Below, one piece after another: positions 4,570 through 35,713 of a stretch of DNA of 36,577 nucleotides (positions are counted from its first letter, which is position 1; every line of letters begins with the position of its first letter). This DNA comes from a virus. The stretch covers positions 1-36,577 of IMG/VR virus record IMGVR_UViG_3300034110_000200, one strand, 5' to 3'. The position numbers were made by a program, and so were the translations under genes. The notes under the pieces are model-generated. The model made no database searches. It was not told the origin of the DNA and was given only the letters and a program-made list of their open reading frames with translations.

Positions 4570-5655
4570 ATGCCAGCAGGATTAATAGTTTTAGACATAG
4601 ATACAAATATAATAAATCCAATGACCGGAAATATGGTCACAGTAAATGGAATTGAAATTGTAAACCCCCTTGTTAATAACACCATTATAGGTTTAAATGC
4701 AGGACAATCAATTGTTGGTGGAATCAATCCTACAATGGGTACATTAAATACAGCGGTTGGTACAAATGCAATGGAATCATCAACCATTGGGCAAGCTAAT
4801 ACTGCTGTTGGACACGATGCTTATAAGTTAGGAGATGGTATAAATGATACTGCAATTGGAAGAGGTGCACTTTCAGCTATGAGTGGAGGGGCATCGTATG
4901 GTAATACTGCTGTTGGGGCAGCTGCATTTTTTCAATTAACTCCATCTACAACTGGCAATTCTGGATTTGGTTTAGGAGCAGGAGAGCAACTTCTTTCTGG
5001 TGATCATAATACTTTTATTGGATATGAAAGCGGCTCTCAATTTTCTGGTGGTATTAATAACACAACTTTAGGAACAAGAACAAGTGGTGGCGGAACACCA
5101 ACTGCGGGTAATCATAATATTTTGTTAGGCACTAATGCATGTTGGAATTATGCTGGAGGGGATGGTAATATAATTATTGGGGCTTATGATATTGCTCCTC
5201 CTTACACATCTGCCCAAACTGGTTCTAATAATATATTAATAGGGAGAAATGCTACGAAAGCAAGTACTAGCACTGCTAACTCAATTACCCTGGGCAATAG
5301 CTCTAATAATGTTTTAAGATGTGCAGTTACATCTATAACATCTCTTTCAGATGCCAGGGATAAAAAAGAAATTACTGAGTTATCTGCAGGACTTGATTTT
5401 GTAAATACTCTTAAGCCTGTAGAATTTATATGGGATGACAGAAATGAAGATGGTAGACATGATGCTAAAGATTTTGGATTTATAGCTCAAGACTTAAAGA
5501 AATCTCAAGAAGATGCAGAATTAGCTGATGTACTTAAATTAGTTTATGAAGAAAATCCTGAGAAATTAGAGGCTAGTTATGGTAAACTTATACCAATTTT
5601 AGTTAAAGCTATTCAGGAATTATCAGAAGAAGTTAAACAATTAAAAAATAAATAA
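4570..5655 (+). CDS. Tail fibre with C-terminal S74 self-cleaving chaperone (copy 1)
   Basis: A 361-residue protein. Residues 55-230 carry repeats of the kind NTAVG-x-x-A and NTFIG, which form left-handed trimeric beta-roll stalks as in YadA-like heads. Residues 256-361 are an intramolecular chaperone of the endosialidase type (peptidase S74): TSLSDARDKKEI at 258-269 holds the catalytic Ser260-Asp261 and Lys, DFGFIAQDLKK starts at 301, and the end is an amphipathic helix. In this family three chaperone tails guide trimer folding and then cut themselves off just before the Ser. The gene is followed three bases later by a paralogue of the same architecture. Confidence 0.85.
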   Translation: MPAGLIVLDIDTNIINPMTGNMVTVNGIEIVNPLVNNTIIGLNAGQSIVGGINPTMGTLNTAVGTNAMESSTIGQANTAVGHDAYKLGDGINDTAIGRGALSAMSGGASYGNTAVGAAAFFQLTPSTTGNSGFGLGAGEQLLSGDHNTFIGYESGSQFSGGINNTTLGTRTSGGGTPTAGNHNILLGTNACWNYAGGDGNIIIGAYDIAPPYTSAQTGSNNILIGRNATKASTSTANSITLGNSSNNVLRCAVTSITSLSDARDKKEITELSAGLDFVNTLKPVEFIWDDRNEDGRHDAKDFGFIAQDLKKSQEDAELADVLKLVYEENPEKLEASYGKLIPILVKAIQELSEEVKQLKNK

Positions 5656-5657
5656 CC

Positions 5658-6698
5658 ATGAGTACAATAAACGTAGATATAATAAATCCAACAGCAGGCA
5701 ATGTTGTTAATGTAAATGGAGTTGAAGTTTCAGCACACGGAACAAATAATATTTGCTTAGGAGATCAATCTGGTCAAGCAATTACAACTGGAATTCGTAG
5801 TGTTTCAATAGGCGACTTGTCTTTAAAAACAGCGACATACCATTCAGACAATGTTGCTATAGGGCATCAAGCTTTAGAGGCTAATGCCGGTGGTGGAAAT
5901 ACAGCTGTAGGTTCTTGGGCTTTAAGAGCTGTAACAAACGGTATTCAAAATGATGCTTTTGGAGCTTATTCTTTATTACAACTAACAACGGGTGGTAATA
6001 ATTCTGGTCTTGGTGGTAATGCAGGAGGAAATTTAGCAAGTGGTAACAGAAATACATTTGTAGGTTTTGGAGCGGGGTTACAGTTTACAAACACTGGTGA
6101 TGGCAATGTTATTGTTGGCAACACTAACGGGTATGCAAATGCAGGTGGAAGTGGAGACAATAACACTTTTGTTGGTAAAGATGCAGGTTGGTCTTTTGCA
6201 GGAGGTAACGATAATGTTATTTTAGGTAAATTTACTACATTCATGGGAACGGGCATAACAGGTAATAATAATATTCAAATAGGAACAGACTCTGTAAAAG
6301 CATCACTTACTGCTAGCAATTCAATTACATTAGGTAACTCATCTCACAATGTACTACGTTGCGCAGTTACTTCCATTACTTCATTATCAGATTCTAGAGA
6401 CAAAGAAGAAGTTGCTGAATTAGCAGTAGGCTTGGAATTTGTCAAAGAGCTTAATCCTGTATCGTTTGTTTGGAATGATAGAGATGAGTCTGGAAAACAT
6501 GGTGTAAAAGACTTTGGATTTATTGCTCAAGATTTAAAGTCTACTCAAGAAAAATATGAAATGGCTGAAACATTAGGCCTAGTATATGAAGAGAACCCAG
6601 AAAAGTTAGAAGCAAGTTATGGAAAATTAATTCCTATATTAGTACAAGCAATTAAAGAATTGTCTGCTAAAGTAGAGGCATTGGAATCTAAAAAATAA
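5658..6698 (+). CDS. Tail fibre with C-terminal S74 self-cleaving chaperone (copy 2)
   Basis: A 346-residue paralogue of the preceding gene. The N-terminus starts MSTINVDIINPTAGNVVNVNG, like MPAGLIVLDIDTNIINP in copy 1, then come NTAVG- and NTFVG-type stalk repeats (about 50-220). The S74 chaperone follows: TSLSDSRDKEEV at 242-253 with catalytic Ser244-Asp245, DFGFIAQDLK from 285, and a coiled-coil end. The chaperone parts are near-identical in protein but differ at many synonymous sites, so the duplication is old. The stalks have diverged, suggesting two fibres with different lengths or receptors, or a mixed fibre. Confidence 0.85.
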   Translation: MSTINVDIINPTAGNVVNVNGVEVSAHGTNNICLGDQSGQAITTGIRSVSIGDLSLKTATYHSDNVAIGHQALEANAGGGNTAVGSWALRAVTNGIQNDAFGAYSLLQLTTGGNNSGLGGNAGGNLASGNRNTFVGFGAGLQFTNTGDGNVIVGNTNGYANAGGSGDNNTFVGKDAGWSFAGGNDNVILGKFTTFMGTGITGNNNIQIGTDSVKASLTASNSITLGNSSHNVLRCAVTSITSLSDSRDKEEVAELAVGLEFVKELNPVSFVWNDRDESGKHGVKDFGFIAQDLKSTQEKYEMAETLGLVYEENPEKLEASYGKLIPILVQAIKELSAKVEALESKK

Positions 6699-13803: not shown

Positions 13804-16021
13804 TGATGAACTAGGTTTAATTTATGAAGACATACCAACATGGGATAACGGTGTTTGGATACAAACTAGTTTTTCTAGCAGAAAAGAAATGGCCGATGCT
13901 CTTGTGTCTGAATATTATAAGGAACCTGGTTTATATGAGTTTGATGATATAGTATATGAGTTTCAAAAGGAAGGTATAAAATTTAAAAAGGATGGTTACT
14001 TTTGTGATGCCGCAGATGGAACAAAAGACTTTATTACATATTGGGATGATCAAAAATTAAAGTGTAGAAAGGGTGTGATTTTTTTTAAGGATGATAAAAA
14101 ATACTACCTATCACGAGAATATTACATGTGGCTAAACTTTTTGCCAATTGTTGATAAAGTAAAAAAGAAAACAGATTTTCCAGACATACATGATTCACAA
14201 TACCATATGGCTCTCTATGAAATAATAGGTGAGTTATTATTTCTTCATGGAGTTGTCTTAAAAAAACGTCAGTTTGGATCATCTTATTTTCATGCAGCCA
14301 AAATGGTTAATGTATTGTGGTTTGAATATGGTCCGGTAATAAAAATTGGTTCTTCTTTAAGTGCATATGTGACTGGCGTAAATGGTACATGGAAAATGAT
14401 TAACGAATACAGAAATTTTTTAAACCAACATACTGCATGGTACAGGCCAATGAATCCTGGTGGTGTTGGTGAATGGCAACAAAAAATTGAGTATGTTGAG
14501 AATGGTAGAAAAACAGAAAGAGGTAGAAAGGGTGTATTACAAGCATTGTCATTTGAACAATCAGATACGGCTGGTGTTGGTGGATTGTGTACTTTGTTTT
14601 TTTATGAAGAAGCCGGCATTGCTAAGTCAATGGATAAAACATACGAATTTATGTTGCCTGCATTACAGGCTGGAGAAATTACAACAGGATATTTTATTGC
14701 ATCAGGAACGGTTGGTGATTTAAAGCAATGTGAACCTTTGCGTAAATATATGTATAAGGCAAAGAAGAATGGTTTTTATGAGGTTCCTAATAGATATGCT
14801 GACTCAAGCGGTGCAATAATAAATTCAGGATTATTTATTCCAGAGCAATGGTCTATGCTTCCGCATATAGATGAGTTTGGAAATTCTTTAGTAGAACAAG
14901 CTTTAGTAGCATTAACTGAATTAAAGGCTCAGTGGAAAAAAGATTTAGATCCTGAAACATATCAGATTAGATGTTCACAAAGACCAACTAATATGGAAGA
15001 AGCATTTGCCTTTAGGGGCGAAAGTTTATTTCCATTAGAATTAGTTAAGTCACACAAAAGAGATATTGAGGAAGGTGACTATCCTTACAAATGCTATAGT
15101 CTAGCTTATGACAATACAGGTTCTATAATAGCTAACTTAACAAACAAGAAACCAATACTAACTTATCCTACAGAAAAAACAGCAGTAGATAAATCAGGGG
15201 CAATACAAGTATGGGAAGAGCCAGACGAAGAAAAAAGTTTTTGCACAACATATTATGCTTCAGTCGATCCAGTATCAGAAGGGAAAACAGTGACATCAGA
15301 TTCACTATGTTCTATTCATGTATATAAAAATCCAGTGCAAGTTCAAAGAGTAAAAGTAACTGGGGAGGTTGAGACTTATATTGAAGGCGATAAGATAGTG
15401 GCTTCGTGGTGCGGTAGGTATGATGATATTAATAAAACACATGAAAAACTTGAACTTATTATTGAATGGTATCAAGCATGGACAGTTGTTGAAAACAACG
15501 TGCCTCTGTTTATACAATATATGCAGTTCAAAAGGAAACAAAAGTATTTAGTGCCATCATCACAGATTGTATTCTCTAAAGAAGTACAACAATCAAAAAC
15601 ACAATTTCAACAATACGGCTGGAGAAATGTCTCAACAATATTTAAAACAATTATGTTGAGTTATTTAATTGAATACCTTAGAGAAGAGCTTGATGAAGAA
15701 ACAGATGAAGATGGAAAGGTTTATAAAAAGTATTATGGTATTAGTAGAATACCTGATTATATGTGTATGATTGAGATGGAGCACTATCAACCAGGAGTGA
15801 ATGTTGATAGATTAGTATCGTTAGCAGCCTTGATTACCTTTGTTAGAATACAAGAAGCAAGTAGAGGATTAAAGAAAAGAGTTGAATATGATAATGAAGA
15901 ACACTTGCATAAGTCAGAAAATTTGTATAAATTAAGTAAGAGTCCCTTTAGACACATTGGACAAAACGGAAACTCTTCAATTATGAAGAAGCCGCGGAAT
16001 CCTTTTAAAAATTTAAGATAA
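13796..16021 (+). CDS. terL: Terminase large subunit (packaging ATPase-nuclease)
   Basis: A 741-residue protein with ATPase and RNase H-like nuclease parts in the usual order. The P-loop position holds a degenerate Walker A, LKKRQFGSSYF (155-165); Walker B is LFFYEEAG (267-274) with the catalytic Glu; the coupling motif is SGTVGD (303-308). The nuclease carries VDP (490-492, catalytic Asp491) and further acidic candidates in VENN (566) and NVDRL (669-673). The protein threads genome DNA into the procapsid using ATP and cuts it at the end of packaging. It is longer than typical terminases (500-600 residues) because of about 100 extra N-terminal residues. Its stop overlaps the portal start (TAATG), a classic packaging arrangement. 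Confidence 0.85.
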   Translation: MINDELGLIYEDIPTWDNGVWIQTSFSSRKEMADALVSEYYKEPGLYEFDDIVYEFQKEGIKFKKDGYFCDAADGTKDFITYWDDQKLKCRKGVIFFKDDKKYYLSREYYMWLNFLPIVDKVKKKTDFPDIHDSQYHMALYEIIGELLFLHGVVLKKRQFGSSYFHAAKMVNVLWFEYGPVIKIGSSLSAYVTGVNGTWKMINEYRNFLNQHTAWYRPMNPGGVGEWQQKIEYVENGRKTERGRKGVLQALSFEQSDTAGVGGLCTLFFYEEAGIAKSMDKTYEFMLPALQAGEITTGYFIASGTVGDLKQCEPLRKYMYKAKKNGFYEVPNRYADSSGAIINSGLFIPEQWSMLPHIDEFGNSLVEQALVALTELKAQWKKDLDPETYQIRCSQRPTNMEEAFAFRGESLFPLELVKSHKRDIEEGDYPYKCYSLAYDNTGSIIANLTNKKPILTYPTEKTAVDKSGAIQVWEEPDEEKSFCTTYYASVDPVSEGKTVTSDSLCSIHVYKNPVQVQRVKVTGEVETYIEGDKIVASWCGRYDDINKTHEKLELIIEWYQAWTVVENNVPLFIQYMQFKRKQKYLVPSSQIVFSKEVQQSKTQFQQYGWRNVSTIFKTIMLSYLIEYLREELDEETDEDGKVYKKYYGISRIPDYMCMIEMEHYQPGVNVDRLVSLAALITFVRIQEASRGLKKRVEYDNEEHLHKSENLYKLSKSPFRHIGQNGNSSIMKKPRNPFKNLR

Positions 16022-18756
16022 TGGAAATAATAAATGCTATTGATATAAAGAAAGGTAAAAGAACCAAAAAAAATAGATTTGGAGTATTTACCCAACCAAT
16101 ACAATTTATTCCTCTTGAGGAAAAAGATGAAGAGTGGGCCAAGCATAATTTAGATTGGTTAGAGTGGCAGGGTGTAAAACAAATAATGCATAAGGCAAGA
16201 CGCATAATGAAAAATTATAAGCTTGCTAAAGGAACAATAGATAAGAGCGACTACCTTCCTGAAGTTGAAAATGAAATGACAGAAATGTTAGATGTTTTAA
16301 CTGAGGGAAACAATGAGTCATTGGAGTTAAAGTTTTATCCATTGATTCCAAACATTATTAACACAATGGTTTCTGAGTTTGCTAAAAGAAATACCAAGAT
16401 TGACTATAGAGCAATTGATGAGTATTCTTACAATGAAATTATGGATAAGAAAACAGAAGAGATTGGAAAAGTTCTTTTGGAATATGCTCAACAAAAATTA
16501 GTTGCTAAAATGGTTGAGATGGGAATGGATCCTAATTCAGAAGAAGCTCAAGAAAAACTTAATCCAGAAGCATTAAAAAAATTACCAGAAATTGAAGAAT
16601 TTTATTCTAAGAAATATCAAACGCTGGCAGAAAAGTGGGCAGTTAAACAACACGCCATAGATGTCAACCGTTTTAAAATGGATGAACTAGAAGAAACCGC
16701 TTTTAGAGATTCATTAATTACTGACAGTGAATTTTGGCATTTCAAAATGCTTGAAGATGATTATGATATTGAACTATTAAATCCAGCATTAACATATTAT
16801 CATAAGTCACCTGGAGTACATTACCTTTCTCAAGGTAATTGGGCAGGATGGATTGATATGCTTACAATCGCAGATGTTGTAGATAAGTATGGTTATCTTA
16901 TGACTGCCGAACAGTTAGAGTCACTTGAATTATTACATCCTGTACGATCAGCTAGATTAATGATTGATGGAATTCCAAATGATGGTTCATTATATAATTC
17001 AGATGACAGTTATGAATCTAATAGAAGATCAGGTGTTGATTTAAAAAGACATATGGCTTTTTTAGAAGGTGCACATGATCCGCATGATGTTGTTTCATAT
17101 ATTATAGGACAAAGTGAACATGCTGGTGACATACACACTTCTGGATTACTAAGGGTATCTACATCTTATTGGAAGACACAAAGAAAGGTTGGAAATCTTA
17201 CCAAGGTTGATGAAGACGGGGCAGTTATAACTGAAATTGTTGATGAGAATTATGTTGTTACTACAAAACCAATTTACAATAAAGTATTTGAGAAAAAAGA
17301 AACTGCTGAAAACTTAGTTTTTGGTGATCATATAGATTGGTTTTGGATTAATCAAACTTGGGGTGGTGTAAAGATTGGTAATAACAGAGCAATTTTTAAT
17401 ACAGAAACAGATACAGATTTTGATCCAATATACTTAGGTATAGATAGAGACAAACCGGGAGCTTTAAGATTCCAGTTCCGTGGAGACAAAACAATGTATG
17501 GTTGCAAAATTCCAATTGAAGGAAAAGTATTCTCTGATAGAAATACAAAATCAACATCACTGGTGGATCTAATGAAGCCTGCGCAAATTGGATATAACTT
17601 ATGCAATAATCAAATTGCTGATATATTAGTTGATGAACTTGGTTCTGTTATAGTACTTGATCAAAATGCAATTCCAAAACATTCAATGGGTGAAGATTGG
17701 GGCAAAAATAATTTAGCCAAAGCATATGTTGCAATGAAAGACTTTAGCATGCTTCCGTTAGACCCCTCTATAGCTAATACTGAATCAGCTACAAATTTTC
17801 AACATTATCAAGTATTAAACTTGGAACAATCACAAAGGTTAATGTCTAGAATACAGTTAGCTAATTATTTCAAACAACAATGTATGGAAGTTGTTGGATT
17901 AAATCCACAAAGAATGGGTCAACAACTTGGGCAAACAAATACAGCTACAGGTGTTGAACAGGCAATGGCTGGTTCTTATGCACAAACAGAAACATACTTT
18001 ATTCAGCATAGCGATCACCTAATGCCTAGAGTGCATGGAATGCGAACTGATTTAGCACAGTATTATCATTCAACCAAATCATCTACTAGACTACAAGGAA
18101 TGATTTCTCCAGATGAACGTGCAAATTTTGAAATAAATGGAACTGATCTTTTGTTAGTTGACTTAAATGTTTTCTGTATGACTAATGCAAACAACAGAAG
18201 TTTATTAGATCAACTTAAACAAGTGTTCATGAGTAACAATACTACAGGGGCATCTGTTTATGATCTTGGTAAATTAATGCAAGCAGACTCTTTAGGAACG
18301 ATTAATGTTGCGCTTAAAGCTATTGAGACCAAGGCTGAAGAACAAAGGGCTCAACAGATGCAGGCTGAACAACAAGCTCAAGAAGCTGAAATTGCAGCTA
18401 AGAAAGCAGAAAAACAAATGACATTTGATCATGAATCTCGTGAAAAAGAAAAAGACCGTAGATCTAGATTGCTTGAGGCAGAAATTAAGGCTGCTGGATA
18501 TGGTGCTATGCAAGACATGGATAAAAACATGCAATCAGACTTCCAAGATGTATTGAAAGATGTAAGGGATACTGAGCAATATGCTGATACTATGAACTTT
18601 AATAGAGAAAAAGAAAATAACAAGGCTGGATTAAATCAACAAAAAATTGATCTTGATAGAGAAAAGCTTTTAATTGATTCTCAAAATAAACAACTTGAGT
18701 TAGCTATTGCAAAAGAAAATAAAAATAAATTTGATCAGAAAAAACCTACTAAATAA
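16021..18756 (+). CDS. Portal protein
   Basis: A 911-residue protein encoded directly after the large terminase. The N-terminal 300 residues are mixed alpha/beta with many charged helices. The central segment at about 375-400 (LLRVSTSYWKTQRKVGNLT) resembles the wing strand of portals from crAss-like and related Bacteroidota phages, followed by WFWINQTWGGVKIG near 437. From about residue 770 the chain is a highly charged helical tail with repeated Glu/Lys/Gln (coiled coil) of about 140 residues. Twelve copies of a portal form the DNA channel and tail-docking ring at one capsid vertex. At 911 residues it is large for a portal, but size and position both fit the large portals of this phage group. 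Confidence 0.8.
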   Translation: MEIINAIDIKKGKRTKKNRFGVFTQPIQFIPLEEKDEEWAKHNLDWLEWQGVKQIMHKARRIMKNYKLAKGTIDKSDYLPEVENEMTEMLDVLTEGNNESLELKFYPLIPNIINTMVSEFAKRNTKIDYRAIDEYSYNEIMDKKTEEIGKVLLEYAQQKLVAKMVEMGMDPNSEEAQEKLNPEALKKLPEIEEFYSKKYQTLAEKWAVKQHAIDVNRFKMDELEETAFRDSLITDSEFWHFKMLEDDYDIELLNPALTYYHKSPGVHYLSQGNWAGWIDMLTIADVVDKYGYLMTAEQLESLELLHPVRSARLMIDGIPNDGSLYNSDDSYESNRRSGVDLKRHMAFLEGAHDPHDVVSYIIGQSEHAGDIHTSGLLRVSTSYWKTQRKVGNLTKVDEDGAVITEIVDENYVVTTKPIYNKVFEKKETAENLVFGDHIDWFWINQTWGGVKIGNNRAIFNTETDTDFDPIYLGIDRDKPGALRFQFRGDKTMYGCKIPIEGKVFSDRNTKSTSLVDLMKPAQIGYNLCNNQIADILVDELGSVIVLDQNAIPKHSMGEDWGKNNLAKAYVAMKDFSMLPLDPSIANTESATNFQHYQVLNLEQSQRLMSRIQLANYFKQQCMEVVGLNPQRMGQQLGQTNTATGVEQAMAGSYAQTETYFIQHSDHLMPRVHGMRTDLAQYYHSTKSSTRLQGMISPDERANFEINGTDLLLVDLNVFCMTNANNRSLLDQLKQVFMSNNTTGASVYDLGKLMQADSLGTINVALKAIETKAEEQRAQQMQAEQQAQEAEIAAKKAEKQMTFDHESREKEKDRRSRLLEAEIKAAGYGAMQDMDKNMQSDFQDVLKDVRDTEQYADTMNFNREKENNKAGLNQQKIDLDREKLLIDSQNKQLELAIAKENKNKFDQKKPTK

Positions 18757-20194: not shown

Positions 20195-21811
20195 ATGGCA
20201 ACTCCAGTTTTAAACAATGGCATGTTCCTTCGGGACAACATGTACACCGCAAGCTCTCATGTGGATTCTTACCACTTGATGAATTTGATGAAGGATTCTC
20301 AACCTGATGACTTAGGACCTATTGAATTATGGGCACAAGTTAAAAAGTTAGAAATGCCTTTATACCAAATGTCTTCTTTTAATGGCAAGAACGTTATTGA
20401 GGTTGATCATCCAAGAGGCGAATACAAGTGGTCTACACCTGTATCTGAAGAACTTCCTTTTATTATGGAAGATCTTGACGCAGGAAATACCGCAAAAGGT
20501 ATTGATGGAACTCCGTTCAAAATCAAATTGAACAAGCGTGTATTTGGACATGGTGATATTATCACTTATGACAAATTTAATGGAAAAGAACTTTATGTAA
20601 CTGATGAAGACATCCTTGATATGGGTGATGGTTTTATCTATACTGTTCAGATGCCAAATAATGATTCAGCTGGAACATTTGATAATAGATTTTTAGCTAA
20701 TAATACATACTACTTCCGAGTAGGTTCTGCAAGAGGTGAATATGGTGAAAGATATTCTGATCTTTCTATGACTCACTCATCTCGTGAATTTTACAACTAT
20801 GTTGGAAATGCTGATGCTCACGTTCACTATTCTATTTCTTCTAGAGTGAAGTTAATGGAAAAAGGTGGAATGAAAGCTGATGGTTCTATCCCAGTTACAG
20901 AAATTTGGAAAAACTTTGACACATCAATAGATCCTTCTATCAATTCATTAGAAGGAATGGTTGCTGCTAAAGGACAAGGTTATGTGAAAAAAGCAATGGA
21001 CAATGGTAACTTAGTGCGTTCATTTATTACTAAATTGGAAGCAGCTCACCTTTCTAAAATTGCTTATGATATTGAAACATACCTTATGTGGGGTAAAGGT
21101 GGTCGCATCAAACAAGATGGTCCAGATGATTTACGTTTATCAGTAGGTTTATGGAAGCAATTAGATTTATCTTACAAGCATGTTTACAATAAGTCTGATT
21201 TCAGATTAGACATCTTCCGTTCTGAGATCTTCAACTTCTTTAATGGTAAAGTTGATTTTCAAGGTCCAGATCCTAAGAGAGATCTTATTGTTCAAACAGG
21301 AATGGGTGGAATGAGACTTATTAATGAGGCTATCAAAAAAGAAGCGTTTGCTTCTGGTCTTGTTATGAATGCCCATGAATTAGATGCTATAAAAGGTAAC
21401 GGAATGGATTTATCTTTTGGTTTCTCTTTCACAAGTTATACAATTCCTTTCTTAGCAAACATCAAGTTTGTTTTGAATCCTGCATTTGACAACTTACAAA
21501 ACAATGAGATTGAAAATCCAATCATTGATGGTTTCCGTCTTTCTTCTTACTCTTTCATTATATTTGATGTTACTGATAATGGTTCAGACAATATTAAATT
21601 ATTGAAGTGTGCTTGGAACAAAGATTTAGTTTGGAGATATGTTAATGGTTCTATGGATTATATGGGAAGAACTCAAGGTTTTGCTTCTTCTGGTAACTTT
21701 AACGGATACCAAATCTACATGACGCAAGCAATGCCTGCAATCAAAGTAGAAGATCCTACCAAAGTGTTAAAAATTGTCATGAGAAACCCAGTAACTGGTG
21801 GTTCATTATAA
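20195..21811 (+). CDS. Major capsid protein
   Basis: A 538-residue protein immediately after the scaffold, followed by the strongest terminator so far, as expected for the most abundant virion protein. Its codon choice is distinct from its neighbours, with many ATC, TTC, AAC, CGT and CGC codons in an otherwise AT-rich genome, a mark of very high expression. The beta-rich central and C-terminal parts (IELWAQVKKLEMPLYQMSSF, RLDIFRSEIFNFFNGK, LVWRYVNGSMDYMGR) and length fit HK97-fold capsid proteins of large Bacteroidota phages, although no single diagnostic motif can be read by eye. The leader is a run of TA repeats without a Shine-Dalgarno sequence. Confidence 0.8.
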   Translation: MATPVLNNGMFLRDNMYTASSHVDSYHLMNLMKDSQPDDLGPIELWAQVKKLEMPLYQMSSFNGKNVIEVDHPRGEYKWSTPVSEELPFIMEDLDAGNTAKGIDGTPFKIKLNKRVFGHGDIITYDKFNGKELYVTDEDILDMGDGFIYTVQMPNNDSAGTFDNRFLANNTYYFRVGSARGEYGERYSDLSMTHSSREFYNYVGNADAHVHYSISSRVKLMEKGGMKADGSIPVTEIWKNFDTSIDPSINSLEGMVAAKGQGYVKKAMDNGNLVRSFITKLEAAHLSKIAYDIETYLMWGKGGRIKQDGPDDLRLSVGLWKQLDLSYKHVYNKSDFRLDIFRSEIFNFFNGKVDFQGPDPKRDLIVQTGMGGMRLINEAIKKEAFASGLVMNAHELDAIKGNGMDLSFGFSFTSYTIPFLANIKFVLNPAFDNLQNNEIENPIIDGFRLSSYSFIIFDVTDNGSDNIKLLKCAWNKDLVWRYVNGSMDYMGRTQGFASSGNFNGYQIYMTQAMPAIKVEDPTKVLKIVMRNPVTGGSL

Positions 21812-22166: not shown

Positions 22167-22174
22167 TATATTTG
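22167..22174 (+). promoter_or_regulatory. Bacteroidota -7 element (TATATTTG) and conserved leader
   Basis: TATATTTG fits TAnnTTTG, though no TTTG is found 19-21 bases upstream. The transcript leader contains GTCAGT at 22174-22179 and ACCAACCAAAAATGA at 22191-22205, both shared with the scaffold leader at 18863-18889. It starts the 22202-25790 operon. Confidence 0.55.
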
Positions 22175-22201
22175 TCAGTCATAAACCAAAACCAACCAAA
22201 A

Positions 22202-23194
22202 ATGAATCAAAAATTAGAAACACTGGGAAAGGTAAGCATAAAAGCTTATACCGATCCTAACCAAGAAAACATGGGCTTAGAAAAGTATAACTATGTAGTA
22301 TTTCCAAACACCTTTCAAGTTGAAACACTTGCGGCCATTGAACAAAATGGTAAAACAAGATATTTAACAGGGTTAAATGAATATGCACCAGAAGTTAAAC
22401 AAATCAAAGACGCTGAAAGAAAAAGTGCGGTTATAAAAGATATTCGCGAAACCATTGCTACACTTGAAAGAGAAAGAGCATTTAATCAAATTGATCCAGA
22501 AGATAAAGAGTTTTGGTCTAAAGTAGAAATGTTTGGCCCAAGTAACTCAGAAGTATGGGGTAAGGTATTCCTAAAATTAGGAAATGATGATCAGTTATTA
22601 GACCCAAAAGAAAATTTAGATCATCTCATCATTGTTAAAGCTATAGAGAGTGGTGGCTTTTCATTAGTTGCTTCAAGTTTTGAAGAGGCAAAAAGAACAA
22701 AGCAAAAATGGTACTTAGATAGACAAATTGATTCTATAACTACTAAGACCAATGTCACCAAGTTGCGTAATAAAGCATTGTCTTTATTACAAGAAATTGC
22801 AGACAAAGATCCAAGAAAATTATTTTATATTGCCAAAAATATTGATGGTAACAGTTCTCAATATTCAAATAAGACATTACAAGATGTTATCTATGACAAC
22901 ATGGACAAATTTATTAATGGTCTTGGATATGATAGCGATAAGAAGCGTTGTGCTAAAACATTTATTGATTCAACTGAAATTTCAAGTGAAGATTTAAAAA
23001 TTAAAGCAATTATTAAAGACGCAAGTTTTTATAAGTATATTATAGTAAAACCTGACGGTATGTTGCATGAGGCTTCTCAAAATGTAATGTTAGGAAGAAA
23101 TGTTTCTGATATTTTAGAGTATCTTAAAAATCCAGTGAATGATGACATGTTGGATTTATTAATGGCTAAGGTTGAAGATATTTGGGGTAAGTAA
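22202..23194 (+). CDS. Conserved virion/head-region protein, 330 aa
   Basis: A 330-residue protein starting MNQKLETLGKVSIKAYTDPN. The first 50 residues are beta-rich (YNYVVFPNTFQVETLAAI); residues 60-100 are a charged helix (QIKDAERKSAVIKDIRETIA and similar); the rest alternates helices and polar loops (DNLDKFINGLGY-type segments, LLDLLMAKVEDIWGK end). It follows the capsid gene and a dedicated promoter. I chose ATG 22202 rather than the in-frame TTG at 22172, because the latter lies inside the TATATTTG promoter element. Genes of this size and place recur downstream of capsid genes in large Bacteroidota phages, with unknown function. Structural role is likely but unproven. Confidence 0.65.
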   Translation: MNQKLETLGKVSIKAYTDPNQENMGLEKYNYVVFPNTFQVETLAAIEQNGKTRYLTGLNEYAPEVKQIKDAERKSAVIKDIRETIATLERERAFNQIDPEDKEFWSKVEMFGPSNSEVWGKVFLKLGNDDQLLDPKENLDHLIIVKAIESGGFSLVASSFEEAKRTKQKWYLDRQIDSITTKTNVTKLRNKALSLLQEIADKDPRKLFYIAKNIDGNSSQYSNKTLQDVIYDNMDKFINGLGYDSDKKRCAKTFIDSTEISSEDLKIKAIIKDASFYKYIIVKPDGMLHEASQNVMLGRNVSDILEYLKNPVNDDMLDLLMAKVEDIWGK

Positions 23195-23212: not shown

Positions 23213-23380
23213 ATGGCAGCAATGAAAATGGTAATGAAAGATGGGAAAAGTGTTCCAGCTTTCGCAGCAGATGGAAAAGGTAAAATGAAAAATGGTGGCA
23301 AAGTAGGTGCTAAAAAAATGGCTATGGGTGGCAAAACTCCTAAAAAAGCTATGGGTGGAAAGATGGGTAAAAAGTGCTAA
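23213..23380 (+). CDS. Small Lys/Gly/Met-rich protein, 55 aa
   Basis: A 55-residue basic protein that ends in repeated K-(A/M)-M-G-G-K units: KKMAMGGKTPKKAMGGKMGKKC at residues 34-55 read in short pieces. The front half (MAAMKMVMKDGKSVPAFAAD) contains many methionines. It is too short to appear in a simple long-frame search, but is well placed 18 bases after the previous stop and six bases before the next start. Small MGGK-repeat proteins are common in aquatic phages with unknown function. A DNA-binding or head-internal role is possible from the charge alone. Confidence 0.65.
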   Translation: MAAMKMVMKDGKSVPAFAADGKGKMKNGGKVGAKKMAMGGKTPKKAMGGKMGKKC

Positions 23381-23386
23381 TAATAA

Positions 23387-23554
23387 ATGGCAACTAAAAA
23401 ACACCCCGGTTTTAAAGCAGTTCAATCTAGTATTGCTGCTAAACAAGGAATTTCTAAAGAGGCTGCTGGTGCAATATTAGCGGCCTCTTCAAGAAAGGCA
23501 TCACCTGCCGCAAAACGCAAGAACCCAAAACTAAAAAAAGTTAAAGGAAAATGA
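23387..23554 (+). CDS. Small conserved basic protein (GFKAVQ family), 55 aa
   Basis: A 55-residue protein with a pattern I recognise from many Bacteroidota and pelagic phages: HPGFKAVQSSIAAKQG, then ISKEAAGAILAASSRKAS, then KRKNPKLKKVKGK. The centre looks like two helices joined by a turn and the tail is basic, so nucleic-acid binding is plausible, but the function has not been described to my knowledge. Its stop codon overlaps the start of the carbonic-anhydrase-like gene (ATGA), so the two are probably translated together. Confidence 0.75.
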   Translation: MATKKHPGFKAVQSSIAAKQGISKEAAGAILAASSRKASPAAKRKNPKLKKVKGK

Positions 23555-24480
23555 GTAATCTAAGAGCATTTGCATTAAAAGATAAACTAGGAAATATTGT
23601 TCCTGGTAGTTTAGTATATAGTCAAACTAAACCAAAAAATGGTAATTTTTTTCTTATTGCTGAGGCAGTTGAAAAAAATCAAATTAACCCAACGGCTTAT
23701 GGCAATACTGTTAAATCATTTTATCCAGGTTCTGTAACTGCAGAATATTTTGGAGATAAGGCTAAGTCTTTTATTTCTACTTATGGATATGCTCCAGACA
23801 ATGTTATCTTATCTGATTCTATTTGTTCAGATGATATTAATGGGCCTATCTATGTAGATGTAAACAATATAGGACAAACACCAGCATCACTTAATGAATT
23901 TTTAGGAGCGTTTATGTCTGGTGGTTTAGCTGGTTATCCACACACAGGTCGTCTTGGATTAATTGCGTGGGCTAGTCATGCAACAACAAATACAAAAGGA
24001 GCTTTGTTTTTAATTAACATGCCACACATAGGCGTGTCTATAGATGGACATTTAGGAAGAGTTAGACGTAGAGGACAAAACACAAGTGGTTTAGATAACA
24101 CATGTGGAGCTGTTGCTACAGCAATTGGATGGGTTATAGCAAATGCTGTTGCTCCTTTGGCGGTAAACTTTCCAGATGATTATCAAAACTTTGTTTTAAC
24201 TAATATACTATTCCCAAATCGATTAGCAATTATAGCTTTGCCTAATTATGGTGAGAGAATGAAGTATGCTACAGAATTAATTAGAGCTGCTTCAGATGCA
24301 TATTTAATTGGCGCTACTGGTATTTCAGCTAATGTGCCTGCAAATATAGATGTATTTTATTGTACTGGAACATTTATAAATACAGATGACACATATAGTT
24401 CTTATATAAAAATTACTTCTTTTAAAAAGTTTAATAATGGGTGGGTTGATTTAACAACTTCTTTTTTGAATACTTTATAA
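23551..24480 (+). CDS. LCIB/C-type beta-carbonic-anhydrase-fold protein (putative)
   Basis: A 309-residue protein whose centre follows the order of motifs of the LCIB/LCIC family (a beta-carbonic-anhydrase-related fold known from algae, diatoms and bacteria): ICSDDIN at 91-97 (Cys92, Asp94), MSGGLAGYPHTGRLG at 122-136, AWASH at 139-143, MPHIGVSIDGHLGRVRRRGQ at 157-176 (His159) and NTCGA at 183-187 (Cys185). Cys92, His159 and Cys185 would be the three zinc ligands, and Asp94 the acid of the Asp-Arg dyad; the Arg expected at 96 by simple beta-CA analogy is Ile, so activity is uncertain. In the family these proteins hydrate CO2 or bind it. Flanking regions are not recognised. It lies in the head/neck block and overlaps a small basic gene by four bases. 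Confidence 0.65.
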   Translation: MSNLRAFALKDKLGNIVPGSLVYSQTKPKNGNFFLIAEAVEKNQINPTAYGNTVKSFYPGSVTAEYFGDKAKSFISTYGYAPDNVILSDSICSDDINGPIYVDVNNIGQTPASLNEFLGAFMSGGLAGYPHTGRLGLIAWASHATTNTKGALFLINMPHIGVSIDGHLGRVRRRGQNTSGLDNTCGAVATAIGWVIANAVAPLAVNFPDDYQNFVLTNILFPNRLAIIALPNYGERMKYATELIRAASDAYLIGATGISANVPANIDVFYCTGTFINTDDTYSSYIKITSFKKFNNGWVDLTTSFLNTL

Positions 24481-24491
24481 TAATTTGAATA

Positions 24492-25196
24492 ATGACAAAT
24501 GACACTATACAAATAAAAGTTAAGCAGCGTATCAACAAGTTGGCTAGTAATGACTATGATAATATCATGCCTTGGCAAATTGTTGAAGCTTTTAACAAAG
24601 GGCAAGTTGCTTGGTGTAGGAGAAATTTAGTTGGAACAAACATGTCTAAAACGGGTGATGAGTCTAGCAAAAGAAGAATTGATGATCTCCAGGTGCTTTT
24701 AACTGAGAAAAAATTAAACATGGTAAAGAAGGATTTGTATTATGCATCTCCGACATTACCAACAAATTATTTTGAATGGAAGTCATTATCATCTAAAGCA
24801 TCATCTAAATGTTGCCCTGATAAAAGAGGAATGATGATTTATTTAGCTGAAGAAGCAAATATACAAGAGTTACTAAGGGACTATAATAAAAAACCAAGTT
24901 TTGATTGGTCTGAAACTTTTTGTACTATAGCTAATAACAAGGTTAAAATATTTACTAATAATGAGTTTGATATTGTAGACACAACACTTACTTATTATAG
25001 ACAACCTAGGAGAATAGAAATAAGTGGTGTATCTAATCCATATACAGGGCTCATCTCTACAGTTAATGTAGAGTGTGAGTTTAAAGATGATTTAATAGAA
25101 CTTTTTATTGATGAATGCGTTAAAATATTATCTGGTGATCTAGAAGATATAACCGCTAATCAAATTGCTGACAATTCAGTTGAAACAAATAATTAA
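24492..25196 (+). CDS. Conserved neck / tail-ring-type structural protein, 234 aa
   Basis: A 234-residue protein with a helical N-terminus (VKQRINKLASNDYDNIMPWQ, then IVEAFNKGQVAWCRRNLVG), a conserved DDLQVLLTEKKLN helix, a beta-rich middle (YLAEEANIQELLRDY, KVKIFTNNEFDIVD, TYYRQPRRIEISG) and a helical end (IELFIDECVKILSGDLED). I recall proteins with the pattern 'W-Q-I-V-E-A-F-N-K-x-Q' and 'E-F-D-I-x-x-x-x-L-T-Y-Y-R-x-P' in Bacteroidota phages, where they sit in the head-to-tail region and are often found in virions. This gene occurs in the same region, 11 bases after the carbonic-anhydrase-like gene. The exact part (ring, connector or stabiliser) is not certain. Confidence 0.6.
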   Translation: MTNDTIQIKVKQRINKLASNDYDNIMPWQIVEAFNKGQVAWCRRNLVGTNMSKTGDESSKRRIDDLQVLLTEKKLNMVKKDLYYASPTLPTNYFEWKSLSSKASSKCCPDKRGMMIYLAEEANIQELLRDYNKKPSFDWSETFCTIANNKVKIFTNNEFDIVDTTLTYYRQPRRIEISGVSNPYTGLISTVNVECEFKDDLIELFIDECVKILSGDLEDITANQIADNSVETNN

Positions 25197-25203
25197 GAAT
25201 AAA

Positions 25204-25665
25204 ATGAACACTCCACAAAGAGGTCTGTTAAAAAGGCCAACACAAGTAGTGACAAATCAAACCTATACAAAACCATCCGGTAGCCACTGTGTTGAGGAAA
25301 CAACTGTTTGTATTTGTGAATTAATGAATGCATCTATTTCATTTCATAAACTGCATTTAAAAGTAGCAGGCCCTGGTGCACACGCCGTGCATGTTGCAAT
25401 AGGCCCGCTGTATGAAGGGCTGCCAGATTTAATAGATACTATTACAGAGGCTTATCAAGGCGCAGCTGAAAGAATATTAATTCTTCCTGACTGTTGTCCA
25501 AGAAGTCTTAACTCTGTAGAGGAGGCTATTATTTACATTAGAGAAATATATGATATGATTTGTGCTTTGCAAGACATTATGTGTTTTTCAGAAATTAGCA
25601 ATGAGCTTGACAATGTAAAAAGATTGTTGTCATCAACAAAGTATAAACTTTTATTTTTAAAATAA
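25204..25665 (+). CDS. Ferritin/Dps-like four-helix protein (DUF5856-like)
   Basis: A 153-residue helical protein resembling Dps and the phage family DUF5856: ELMNASISFHKLHLK at about 39-53 is the first helix, VAIGPLYEGLPDLIDTITEA (68-87) the second with the Y-E-x-L-x-D-x-x-D motif of Dps proteins, EEAIIYIREIYDMICALQDI the third and NELDNVKRLLSSTKYKL the last. The E-G-L-P-D and His/Glu residues in the first two helices resemble Dps metal-binding positions, but which are kept cannot be settled by eye. The start ATG 25204 is chosen; an in-frame ATG at 25165 would lie in the preceding gene. It lies in the head/neck operon. Virion or DNA-protection roles are possible. Confidence 0.6.
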   Translation: MNTPQRGLLKRPTQVVTNQTYTKPSGSHCVEETTVCICELMNASISFHKLHLKVAGPGAHAVHVAIGPLYEGLPDLIDTITEAYQGAAERILILPDCCPRSLNSVEEAIIYIREIYDMICALQDIMCFSEISNELDNVKRLLSSTKYKLLFLK

Positions 25666-30948: not shown

Positions 30949-32382
30949 ATGGCGTGTGCATCTTGTCAACAAAATAATCAGGTAGTAACCAATCAAACAA
31001 ATTGTGATTGTGCATGTGGATGCGTTGATCCTGTATGTCCAACACCACAACCGTGTACAGAAATTACTGATTCAAAATGTATTATATATACTGATCCAGC
31101 AATTATTTGCGGATTAGATACAGTTGTAACAGCTAACTCATCTGTTTCTACAGCTTTAAATAGCATAACTTCTTATTTTTGTGCTAATGGTGGAGGTGGT
31201 GGAGGTACTGGCCCCGCTGGTCCTATAGGTCCTGCTGGTGTTCAAGGAATTCAAGGAGTGGCTGGCCCTACTGGACCACAAGGAACTGCTGGTTCTGCAG
31301 GTGGTGCAGGCACAACAGGTGCTACTGGACCACAGGGTGCGCAAGGTGTTCCTGGGCCTATTGGACCCGCTGGCTTAAACTGGCAAGGTTCATGGTCACC
31401 TTTAGGTATTTATGCTCCTGATGACGCTGTAGGATTTAATGGTGCTTCATGGTTTTGTTTAAATGCCGTTGGTCCATTTCCAACTAATCCACTTTTAGAT
31501 CCAACCAACTGGGCTTTATTGGCTTCACAAGGTGCTGTCGGCCCTACTGGTCCAACTGGTGCCGCTGGGGTAGCTGGTGCTGCAGGTGCTACTGGCCCTC
31601 AAGGGGTTGCTGGTTCAGCGGGTGCTCAAGGCGCACAGGGTATACCAGGTCCAACGGGAGCACAAGGTATTCAGGGTATTCAAGGTGTTCCAGGGTCTGG
31701 AACTGCACAAAATACATGGTTAACTTTTAACTCTACAGCTGGTAATGTTTCAGCAAATTCACCAAATGAGGTAATTACATTTGTTGGACAAAAAGAAATC
31801 AATACAAGTATTTCTGGACAAACGGTAACAATAAACTCATGGAGATATGAAATTGGTGAATATGTAAATGCTCAAGGAGGAGTAATTTATCATAGATGGA
31901 TTTCATCTACACCAGGTGGACCTCCAGGTTTGGGTGCTACACAAAATTATTTAATTGTAGATCTTGTAGATTTATCTGTAGGCACAAATGTTCAATGGGC
32001 AACAGCATATGTAGACATAGCTAATGCTGAATCTACAAACACTGGATCTCTTAATACGGCTTTAATGATTGCAGCTGGGGCTCCGGCTGGTATAACAACG
32101 GGAACAGCCGCTGTTTTATGTGATTCTAGTACTAATTGGGGTCAAATAGATTGGTATCTTCCAGCTGTTGATGAATTATCTAAGTTATATAGCAATAGAT
32201 TTGAAGTTCAAATGGGACTTAGTATAGTAGGTGGTACCGAATTAAATTTTAATTCTTATTGGAGTAGTACTGAGTATGATGCTACTTTAGCATACCAGTA
32301 TTCTTTTACTAATGGTTATACTTGGGTACAAGGTAAGACCTCTGGATCCGCGGTACGGGCTGTAAGAAGATTTTCTATATAA
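30949..32382 (+). CDS. Collagen-like fibre with DUF1566/Lcl C-terminal domain
   Basis: A 477-residue fibre. Residues 1-36 are a Cys-rich tag (MACASCQQ, CDCACGCVDPVC). Residues 87-141 and 196-250 are Gly-X-Y collagen-like repeats. Between them at 142-195 is a Trp-rich module (NWQGSWSPLG, DDAVGFNGASWFC, NWALLASQG) nearly matching the one in the 6705 fibre. Residues 300-477 match the DUF1566/Lcl lectin-like fold: WYLPAVDELSKLY, YWSSTEY, then WVQGKTSGSAVRAVRRFSI at the end. Lcl-type domains are found on surface adhesins and on some phage fibres. The architecture is that of a multivalent receptor-binding fibre. Confidence 0.8.
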   Translation: MACASCQQNNQVVTNQTNCDCACGCVDPVCPTPQPCTEITDSKCIIYTDPAIICGLDTVVTANSSVSTALNSITSYFCANGGGGGGTGPAGPIGPAGVQGIQGVAGPTGPQGTAGSAGGAGTTGATGPQGAQGVPGPIGPAGLNWQGSWSPLGIYAPDDAVGFNGASWFCLNAVGPFPTNPLLDPTNWALLASQGAVGPTGPTGAAGVAGAAGATGPQGVAGSAGAQGAQGIPGPTGAQGIQGIQGVPGSGTAQNTWLTFNSTAGNVSANSPNEVITFVGQKEINTSISGQTVTINSWRYEIGEYVNAQGGVIYHRWISSTPGGPPGLGATQNYLIVDLVDLSVGTNVQWATAYVDIANAESTNTGSLNTALMIAAGAPAGITTGTAAVLCDSSTNWGQIDWYLPAVDELSKLYSNRFEVQMGLSIVGGTELNFNSYWSSTEYDATLAYQYSFTNGYTWVQGKTSGSAVRAVRRFSI

Positions 32383-34642: not shown

Positions 34643-35713
34643 ATGTGTAATTGTACAGATAAAACATGTTGTAAGCATGCAGAAGTAAAGCTCAGAGGCC
34701 CTCGTGGATTTGTTGGGCCAGCAGGACCTGTTGGATTAACTGGTGCAATCGGCTTACAAGGTATTCAAGGAATACCCGGTATTGCAGGTTCAAATGGAGC
34801 AAATGGATTGAATGGCGCTCAAGGCATGCCTGGTATTCCAACATCAATATTAGATACAAATACTGTTGATTTAGATTACACCGGAGGCGTACTTGTTGCA
34901 AATGTTCAAGACACAGGATGGGTTAACTTATTAGGGTTTGCATTTATGGCTGCTAATCCAGGTAGACCACAATGTAGAAGAATTGGAAACGTAATTCACT
35001 TTAGAGGATATGCAGTTGTTCCTATGGGAACTGGTGATGGTGGTGCTAGTGGTGCTATTGAATTGTCAAATGATTCAGATGACTATGTTACATTTAAAAA
35101 AGGAAAAACATTTAATACTGTTGATTCTGGTAGCGCTGCTGATTCATGTGAATTACTTGGGTACGCGGGCGTTACTCCATGGTTAACAGCTACTACTGCA
35201 ATTGGTCTTAGGTTTAATAGAGGCAATTCAGTAATTCCAACATCAGTTATACCAGTAGGTAATACACTAGATGGTAGTTATGTTTTAAATACTAGAAATG
35301 TTATTGCTAGAACAGTAACAACTACTGGCAATAAAAATGCTGGTTTACATTCTTTAGTAGGTTTAACAATTGGAAGCAATGGGACGCTATTAATGTCTAG
35401 TATTTTATATGATGAAACATATCCTGGAGCATTAGCCGGCATTGAATATAGCTCTATAGGTAGAAGTATGATAAGTAATATTATATCTGGTGAAAATATA
35501 CCGGTTTTTACATCAACTGCTCCATCAAGTTATAATGCTACAGCAGCAGGTGCATATTCACCTGATATTACAGGTAGCGCTGACACTTGGGCCTTTAGTC
35601 AAAACGCTGGTCACGCTGATCAACTTGGTGGATTTATAATTCAATTGTCAGGACTAATGAGTTATATAAGTCCGTGTGCAACTTTAATACCAACACCAAC
35701 ACCATGTACTTAA
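34643..35713 (+). CDS. Collagen-like tail fibre, 356 aa
   Basis: A 356-residue fibre with N-terminal Cys-rich tag MCNCTDKTCCKH, Gly-X-Y repeats at about 17-66 (GPRGFVGPAGPVGLTGAIG, GLQGIQGIPGIAG), then a 280-residue C-terminal part. That part begins with a segment like DTGWVNLLGFAFMA and RIGNVIHFRGYAVV, typical of beta-sandwich tips, and ends with a Thr/Pro-rich tail (LIPTPTPCT). It is the last gene of the second fibre block before the terminator at 35778. The C-terminal part probably contacts the receptor. The family of the tip is not recognised. Confidence 0.7.
   Translation: MCNCTDKTCCKHAEVKLRGPRGFVGPAGPVGLTGAIGLQGIQGIPGIAGSNGANGLNGAQGMPGIPTSILDTNTVDLDYTGGVLVANVQDTGWVNLLGFAFMAANPGRPQCRRIGNVIHFRGYAVVPMGTGDGGASGAIELSNDSDDYVTFKKGKTFNTVDSGSAADSCELLGYAGVTPWLTATTAIGLRFNRGNSVIPTSVIPVGNTLDGSYVLNTRNVIARTVTTTGNKNAGLHSLVGLTIGSNGTLLMSSILYDETYPGALAGIEYSSIGRSMISNIISGENIPVFTSTAPSSYNATAAGAYSPDITGSADTWAFSQNAGHADQLGGFIIQLSGLMSYISPCATLIPTPTPCT

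Follow-up and report, generated by a model that had tools for sequence, protein, structure and literature searches.

A putative LCIB-type beta-carbonic anhydrase in the structural gene block of a crAss-like phage, and its fusion to different N-terminal modules in related phages

A fragment of viral DNA of 36,577 nt (the whole stretch that was analysed, here called the window) encodes within its block of virion genes a 309 aa protein of the LCIB family of beta-carbonic anhydrases. The predicted active site is complete and is conserved throughout a large group of phage homologs, in which the same domain is joined to several different N-terminal modules. We consider the chances about even that this protein is, taking all parts of the statement together, a working carbonic anhydrase of the LCIB type that the virion bears on its surface or contains.

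An LCIB gene in a variable slot of a crassvirus genome

The window contains the following features around the gene in question:

16021..18756, + strand: portal protein (phrog_6547, E 5.7e-83)
20195..21811, + strand: major capsid protein, crassvirus type (PF23898, E 1.4e-25)
22172..23194, + strand: gene bordering the slot upstream, in the position of crAss001 gp33 (collinear, weak profile match)
23213..23380, + strand: small basic Lys/Gly-rich protein, 55 aa, of the ORF class that fills the slot in relatives
23387..23554, + strand: small basic protein, 55 aa, its stop overlapping the LCIB start (ATGA)
23551..24480, + strand: LCIB-type (PF18599) beta-carbonic-anhydrase-like protein, 309 aa (Pfam match, Foldseek)
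23551..23688, + strand: module A, residues 1–46, 'K-x-YA-x-D...IVPGSLVL..KP..G.W.EV', a putative virion anchor (profile of residues 1–60)
23737..24426, + strand: LCIB_C_CA domain, residues 63–292 (Pfam profile)
24492..25196, + strand: ring (tail barrel) protein, bordering the slot downstream (matches: 'ring protein' of csAssE-Sib, E 9e-9; a virion structural protein of phi17:2, E 1e-5; phrog_29507)

On account of the portal, the crassvirus capsid and the ring protein, the window is a fragment of Crassvirales, i.e. of a crAss-like phage, a virus of bacteria. A sequence-only reading had placed the LCIB gene in a head/neck block and had proposed its translational coupling to a small basic protein. 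Both statements hold: the gene is located downstream of the major capsid gene, between the gp33-like and the ring gene, and the stop codon of the ORF at 23387–23554 shares an ATGA with the LCIB start codon at 23551. Mis-binned host DNA was ruled out, as capsid and portal genes are on the same contig in the window and in many relatives.

The identity of the domain as LCIB_C_CA is near certain. All motifs from which the LCIB/LCIC type had been suggested (ICSDD, SGGLAGYPHTG, AWASH, PHIGVSIDG-HLGRVRRRGQ and TCGA) are present in the ORF, and the profile PF18599 confirms the assignment with 104.6 bits (E 6e-30; cut-off 25 bits) over residues 63–292, covering profile positions 3–220 of 223. In a six-frame search this profile found the window with an E of 4.9e-32 and had 0 matches in 14 control genomes. 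Comparison of the protein with the PDB by phmmer yielded 6kfs (E 1e-19) and PtLCIB4 (E 9e-13), and more weakly CrLCIB and CrLCIC (E about 1e-4), while among the PHROG and NCBIfam models none was found for it. A chance similarity to LCIB was ruled out by profile, fold and conservation together. Close pairs of the phage LCIB genes have dN/dS ratios mostly of 0.2–0.35, and these genes are under purifying selection. A scan for sigma-70 promoters gave no more sites than were found in shuffles.

The gene also marks the junction at which it is located as a variable gene slot of environmental crassviruses. Its upstream flank is identified by position plus a weak match, gp33 being the best, collinear match among 14 crAss001 proteins, and is conserved in relatives with and without LCIB. 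The gp33-like and ring genes are adjacent and without LCIB in crAss001 (gp33–gp34 junction, the same slot after the capsid gene, 4 bp apart), csAssE-Sib (3 bp) and Cellulophaga phage phi17:2 (0 bp), whereas in the window the two 55 aa basic ORFs and the LCIB gene lie between them. Three loci with capsid proteins 84–93% identical to that of the window (L157, L158 and L161) show a precise empty site, the basic ORF leading directly into the ring gene. Among 48 loci chosen by close capsid proteins and with both flanks found, LCIB occupies the slot in one; this sporadic occurrence we count against the explanation preferred below. In the other loci the slot is empty or filled by small basic ORFs rich in Lys and Gly, DUF6321 and DUF5872 proteins among them; runs of such ORFs ('MKKGG...KKK') occur in the slots of L002–L227, and their products are possibly DNA-binding content of the virion.

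Several further genes were observed in these neighbourhoods. DUF6321 genes adjoin LCIB in L010. A GIY-YIG gene with NUMOD3 is found next to LCIB in L019 (8208–8987) and GIY-YIG-like genes in L035 (9267–9890) and L071 (11342–11965); such homing-endonuclease-type genes may help the slot genes to spread. In the window, a gene for a DUF5856/Dps-like 'starvation-inducible' protein (25165–25665; phrog_858, E 1e-17) overlaps the end of the ring gene within the structural block, and the fibre genes at 4570–6698, 30949–32382 and 34643–35713 code for a pair of neighbouring Peptidase_S74 (intramolecular chaperone) proteins and for proteins with collagen repeats, one of the latter with a near-cut-off Lcl_C domain.

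Predicted fold and active site

LCIB proteins are known from the CO2-concentrating mechanisms of algae. An AlphaFold model of the 309 aa protein built from 56 aligned phage proteins (mean pLDDT 82, pTM 0.76), which superseded a model from 9 sequences (pLDDT 67.5), was compared with the PDB by Foldseek. The top match was 6kfs (E 1e-14, TM 0.80 on the target), together with PtLCIB4 (TM 0.80–0.82 on the known structure), followed by the S47R mutant, LCIB and LCIC, and then by ordinary beta-carbonic anhydrases. The best matches all belong to the LCIB family (E 1e-14 to 3e-7). The comparison with PtLCIB4 that the sequence-only reading had proposed shows a matching fold, and with the highly significant profile match this leaves its core claim unrefuted. 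PtLCIB4 of Phaeodactylum tricornutum (PDB 5b5y) and the CCM-related 6kfs have in common with the phage protein the fold, the positions of Cys-Ser-Asp, His, His and Cys and the RRG motif. They differ from it by an identity of only 21–25%, by the absence of the N-terminal module and by an insertion that characterizes the phage clade (NIGQ region, about residues 104–112). CrLCIB and CrLCIC (PDB 5k5w, 5b5x) share Pfam family and fold with it, albeit more weakly (TM 0.63–0.70). Model confidence is low at residues 109–121, near the active site, which we count against the explanation preferred below.

The residues of interest are encoded as follows:

23824..23832, + strand: Cys92-Ser93-Asp94, in this order a predicted zinc ligand, the counterpart of S47 in PtLCIB4 and the Asp of the Asp-Arg dyad (alignment to PtLCIB4 and the S47R chain; Cys92 and Asp94 also by conservation)
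23977..23979, + strand: His143, aligned with His88 of PtLCIB4 (H88A mutant chain) (alignment, conservation)
24025..24027, + strand: His159, predicted zinc ligand (alignment, conservation)
24067..24069, + strand: Arg173, invariant, candidate partner of Asp94 (conservation; by comparison with Arg194/193 of LCIB/LCIC, PMC5876011)
24103..24105, + strand: Cys185, predicted zinc ligand (alignment, conservation)

In the alignment to PtLCIB4, its CSD, HVG and CCG positions, which hold the zinc-binding residues, are taken by Cys92, His159 and Cys185, and the Asp of CxD by Asp94. Judged by alignment and fold match, the three predicted ligands should come together in space. The complete Cys-His-Cys zinc set that had been proposed is upheld at the level of aligned positions, and it is invariant in 79 proteins. 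Indeed, Cys92, Asp94, His143, His159, Arg173 and Cys185 are unchanged in 79 of 79 distinct phage LCIB proteins, the identity of which goes down to about 37–40%. These proteins were drawn from two scans of viral contigs, of which the best 80 of 105 and the best 80 of 130 relatives were kept. In the first scan the patterns were centred on the regions of His159 and Cys185, in the second a segment covering none of the six residues was used, and the proteins added by the latter also have an intact active site. All six belong to the 30 invariant positions out of 309, for which the chance would be 5e-7 if invariant sites were distributed at random. Residue 93 is Ser in nearly all relatives, as in wild-type PtLCIB4. 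Three apparent exceptions in the active site turned out to be other proteins having only module A in common.

As to the Arg partner of Asp94, a point raised by the sequence-only reading, Arg173 is most likely, since it is invariant in the 79 proteins and is the candidate counterpart of Arg194/193 in LCIB/LCIC. According to a review of LCIB structures, disorder of His162/161 and Arg194/193 goes with the inactivity of Chlamydomonas LCIB and LCIC, in which the fold and the zinc site are kept and carbonic anhydrase activity is reported to be absent (PMC5876011). Intact residues are therefore no guarantee of catalysis. However, the phage proteins keep His143 and Arg173, the likely counterparts of these two residues, without exception. 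A degenerate enzyme was ruled out by the conservation of the catalytic set in 79 of 79 proteins, and a dead enzyme reused as a structural part, one of the options considered earlier, appears unlikely for the same reason. We infer that the phage protein is quite probably active as a carbonic anhydrase.

Relatives and N-terminal modules

The viral-contig scans gave 105 and 130 LCIB relatives, and no cultured phage is known to carry the gene. Relatives were found neither in 50,697 annotated phage records nor in 72,556 plasmids, and two scans of genome contigs with phage-specific patterns, by which cellular LCIB is hardly sampled, likewise gave none. With regard to the capsid, 14 of 37 carrier records searched have the crassvirus type and 10 the T4-type Gp23, none both. 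In L024 and L026, both with the Gp23 capsid, LCIB is again located shortly downstream of the major capsid gene. A tree separates the phage LCIB proteins from three cellular sequences by a branch of 1.6 with a support of 100; with only three cellular rows it has no bearing on their origin. Two large-phage contigs possess two LCIB genes in tandem (L121, 5440–7506, a contig of 202,880 bp with a Gp23 capsid gene; L140, 5431–7555), the second copy starting at the domain itself. In L135 and L124 (5479–7809) the domain is found in the middle of 776 aa proteins (residues 149–364), with about 390 further C-terminal residues without Pfam match.

At least five different modules, termed A to E, precede the LCIB domain at the N-terminus. 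Module A occurs in crassvirus-type carriers, modules B to E in carriers including those with the Gp23 capsid. A profile made from residues 1–60 of the LCIB fusions shows that module A opens more than 20 other phage proteins in related loci, among them one with BspA-type leucine-rich repeats (LRR_5) and one with a FISUMP domain. Examples are, besides others, L034 (6873–8075), L039 (11002–12045), L010 (7447–7680) and L069 (7613–8116); in L039 it is present in tandem, and Thr-rich proteins bear it, too. Its consensus reads 'LKAYVRxDGSGRxVPGSLILRxxKPKVGxWxEI' and is here without Pfam or PHROG model. Module B, from the Gp23-capsid phages (L026 among its carriers), is also found on short ORFs nearby, and a 776 aa fibre-like protein begins with its signature; its consensus matches a 'tail fiber protein' of a Flavobacterium phage weakly (E 0.3), and for modules A, C, D and E no counterpart was found in annotated phages. 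For carrier phages neither a proteome nor a structure of the virion was found, and neither Pfam nor PHROG nor annotated phages hold a counterpart of the modules whose location is known; both points count against the explanation preferred below. Collagen-repeat genes are directly upstream of LCIB in L025 and L033, and as far as the stretch is covered another module-A or collagen-like protein is within 6 kb of 16 of the 79 LCIB genes only.

The presence of the same domain on different tail-fibre-like end pieces in many related phages speaks for transport of the enzyme on the virus particle; these observations on the modules are the principal, though indirect, argument for a place in the virion. 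Among the options named in the sequence-only reading, carriage in the virion would thus be the one favoured by the fusions, and a location of the protein in or on the virion appears reasonably likely to us.

Possible functions of the phage enzyme

In the explanation that we prefer, a zinc-dependent beta-carbonic anhydrase of the LCIB family with a complete active site would be attached to the virion by a short N-terminal module such as also occurs on fibre-like proteins in related phages. It would be exposed on appendages of the head or tail, or else be a cargo of the particle. It could then interconvert CO2 and bicarbonate at adsorption or just after DNA entry, close to or inside the host, which probably belongs to the Bacteroidota. 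The effect may be a changed local pH or a supply of bicarbonate for nucleotide and fatty-acid carboxylations, and presumably a benefit to infection.

The intact active site also fits an auxiliary metabolic enzyme made late in infection and working in the host cytoplasm, providing bicarbonate for the carboxylations of pyrimidine, purine and fatty-acid synthesis, with the modules serving only for oligomerisation or solubility and the position in the structural block resulting from chance insertion. The gene is a homolog of a cellular metabolic enzyme, is sporadic, and at one site occurs in some close relatives while others have a precise empty site, as is the case for auxiliary genes; moreover, the L121 and L140 lineages include the copy without N-terminal module. 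However, a cytosolic enzyme would not usually be fused again and again to different fibre-like modules, and module A is also borne by LRR_5 and FISUMP proteins, which are not metabolic enzymes. We regard this possibility as rather unlikely.

The LRR and FISUMP domains otherwise borne by module A are of a ligand-binding type, and this speaks for a virion adhesin in which the LCIB domain would be non-catalytic or merely bind a substrate. By analogy, vaccinia D8, an adhesion molecule for chondroitin sulfate E, offers a precedent (PMC4256255). Yet six catalytic-site positions invariant in 79 proteins would be needless in an adhesin, which makes this the least probable of the readings considered. 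Only slightly less improbable appears a zinc hydrolase of the beta-carbonic anhydrase fold acting at the cell surface on another substrate, for instance in COS or CS2 hydrolysis. Both reactions occur elsewhere in this fold, beta-carbonic anhydrase relatives with other substrates exist, and the phage clade is well apart from the three available cellular LCIB sequences. On the other hand, all catalytic positions equivalent to those of PtLCIB4 are kept, and Ser93 in nearly all proteins.

Known viral proteins provide partial parallels to an enzyme borne by the virion. Vaccinia D8 is likewise a virus-encoded carbonic-anhydrase-type domain and part of the virion, but it has an alpha-carbonic-anhydrase-like fold and binds chondroitin sulfate, whereas the phage protein has the beta-type (LCIB) fold and an intact active site. 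The carbonic anhydrases reported from giant viruses and viromes, among them those of Harvfovirus and of the Karenia brevis-associated giant virus vOTU6 (PMC13037468), are virus-encoded, too, but they are not from phages, show no fibre-like fusions and are not established as LCIB type. In BFVD, a collection of predicted viral protein structures, the phage model matched nothing at E < 0.001, the best hit being the Harvfovirus enzyme (E 0.02). In open-access papers on LCIB or on crAss-like phages with carbonic anhydrase, no report of a phage LCIB enzyme was found.

A large phage clade with invariant active sites and several fibre-like modules would represent a new use of carbonic anhydrase and widen the LCIB family. 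It is tentative, and to us somewhat doubtful, that in Crassvirales and in the unrelated T4-like phages with Gp23 capsid an active LCIB carbonic anhydrase serves as an interchangeable appendage domain of the virion, so that, while attaching to or entering the host, the particle itself may change CO2, bicarbonate or pH at the surface of the cell. The phage LCIB clade offers a concrete handle on the question whether the inorganic-carbon chemistry at the host cell is altered by phages.
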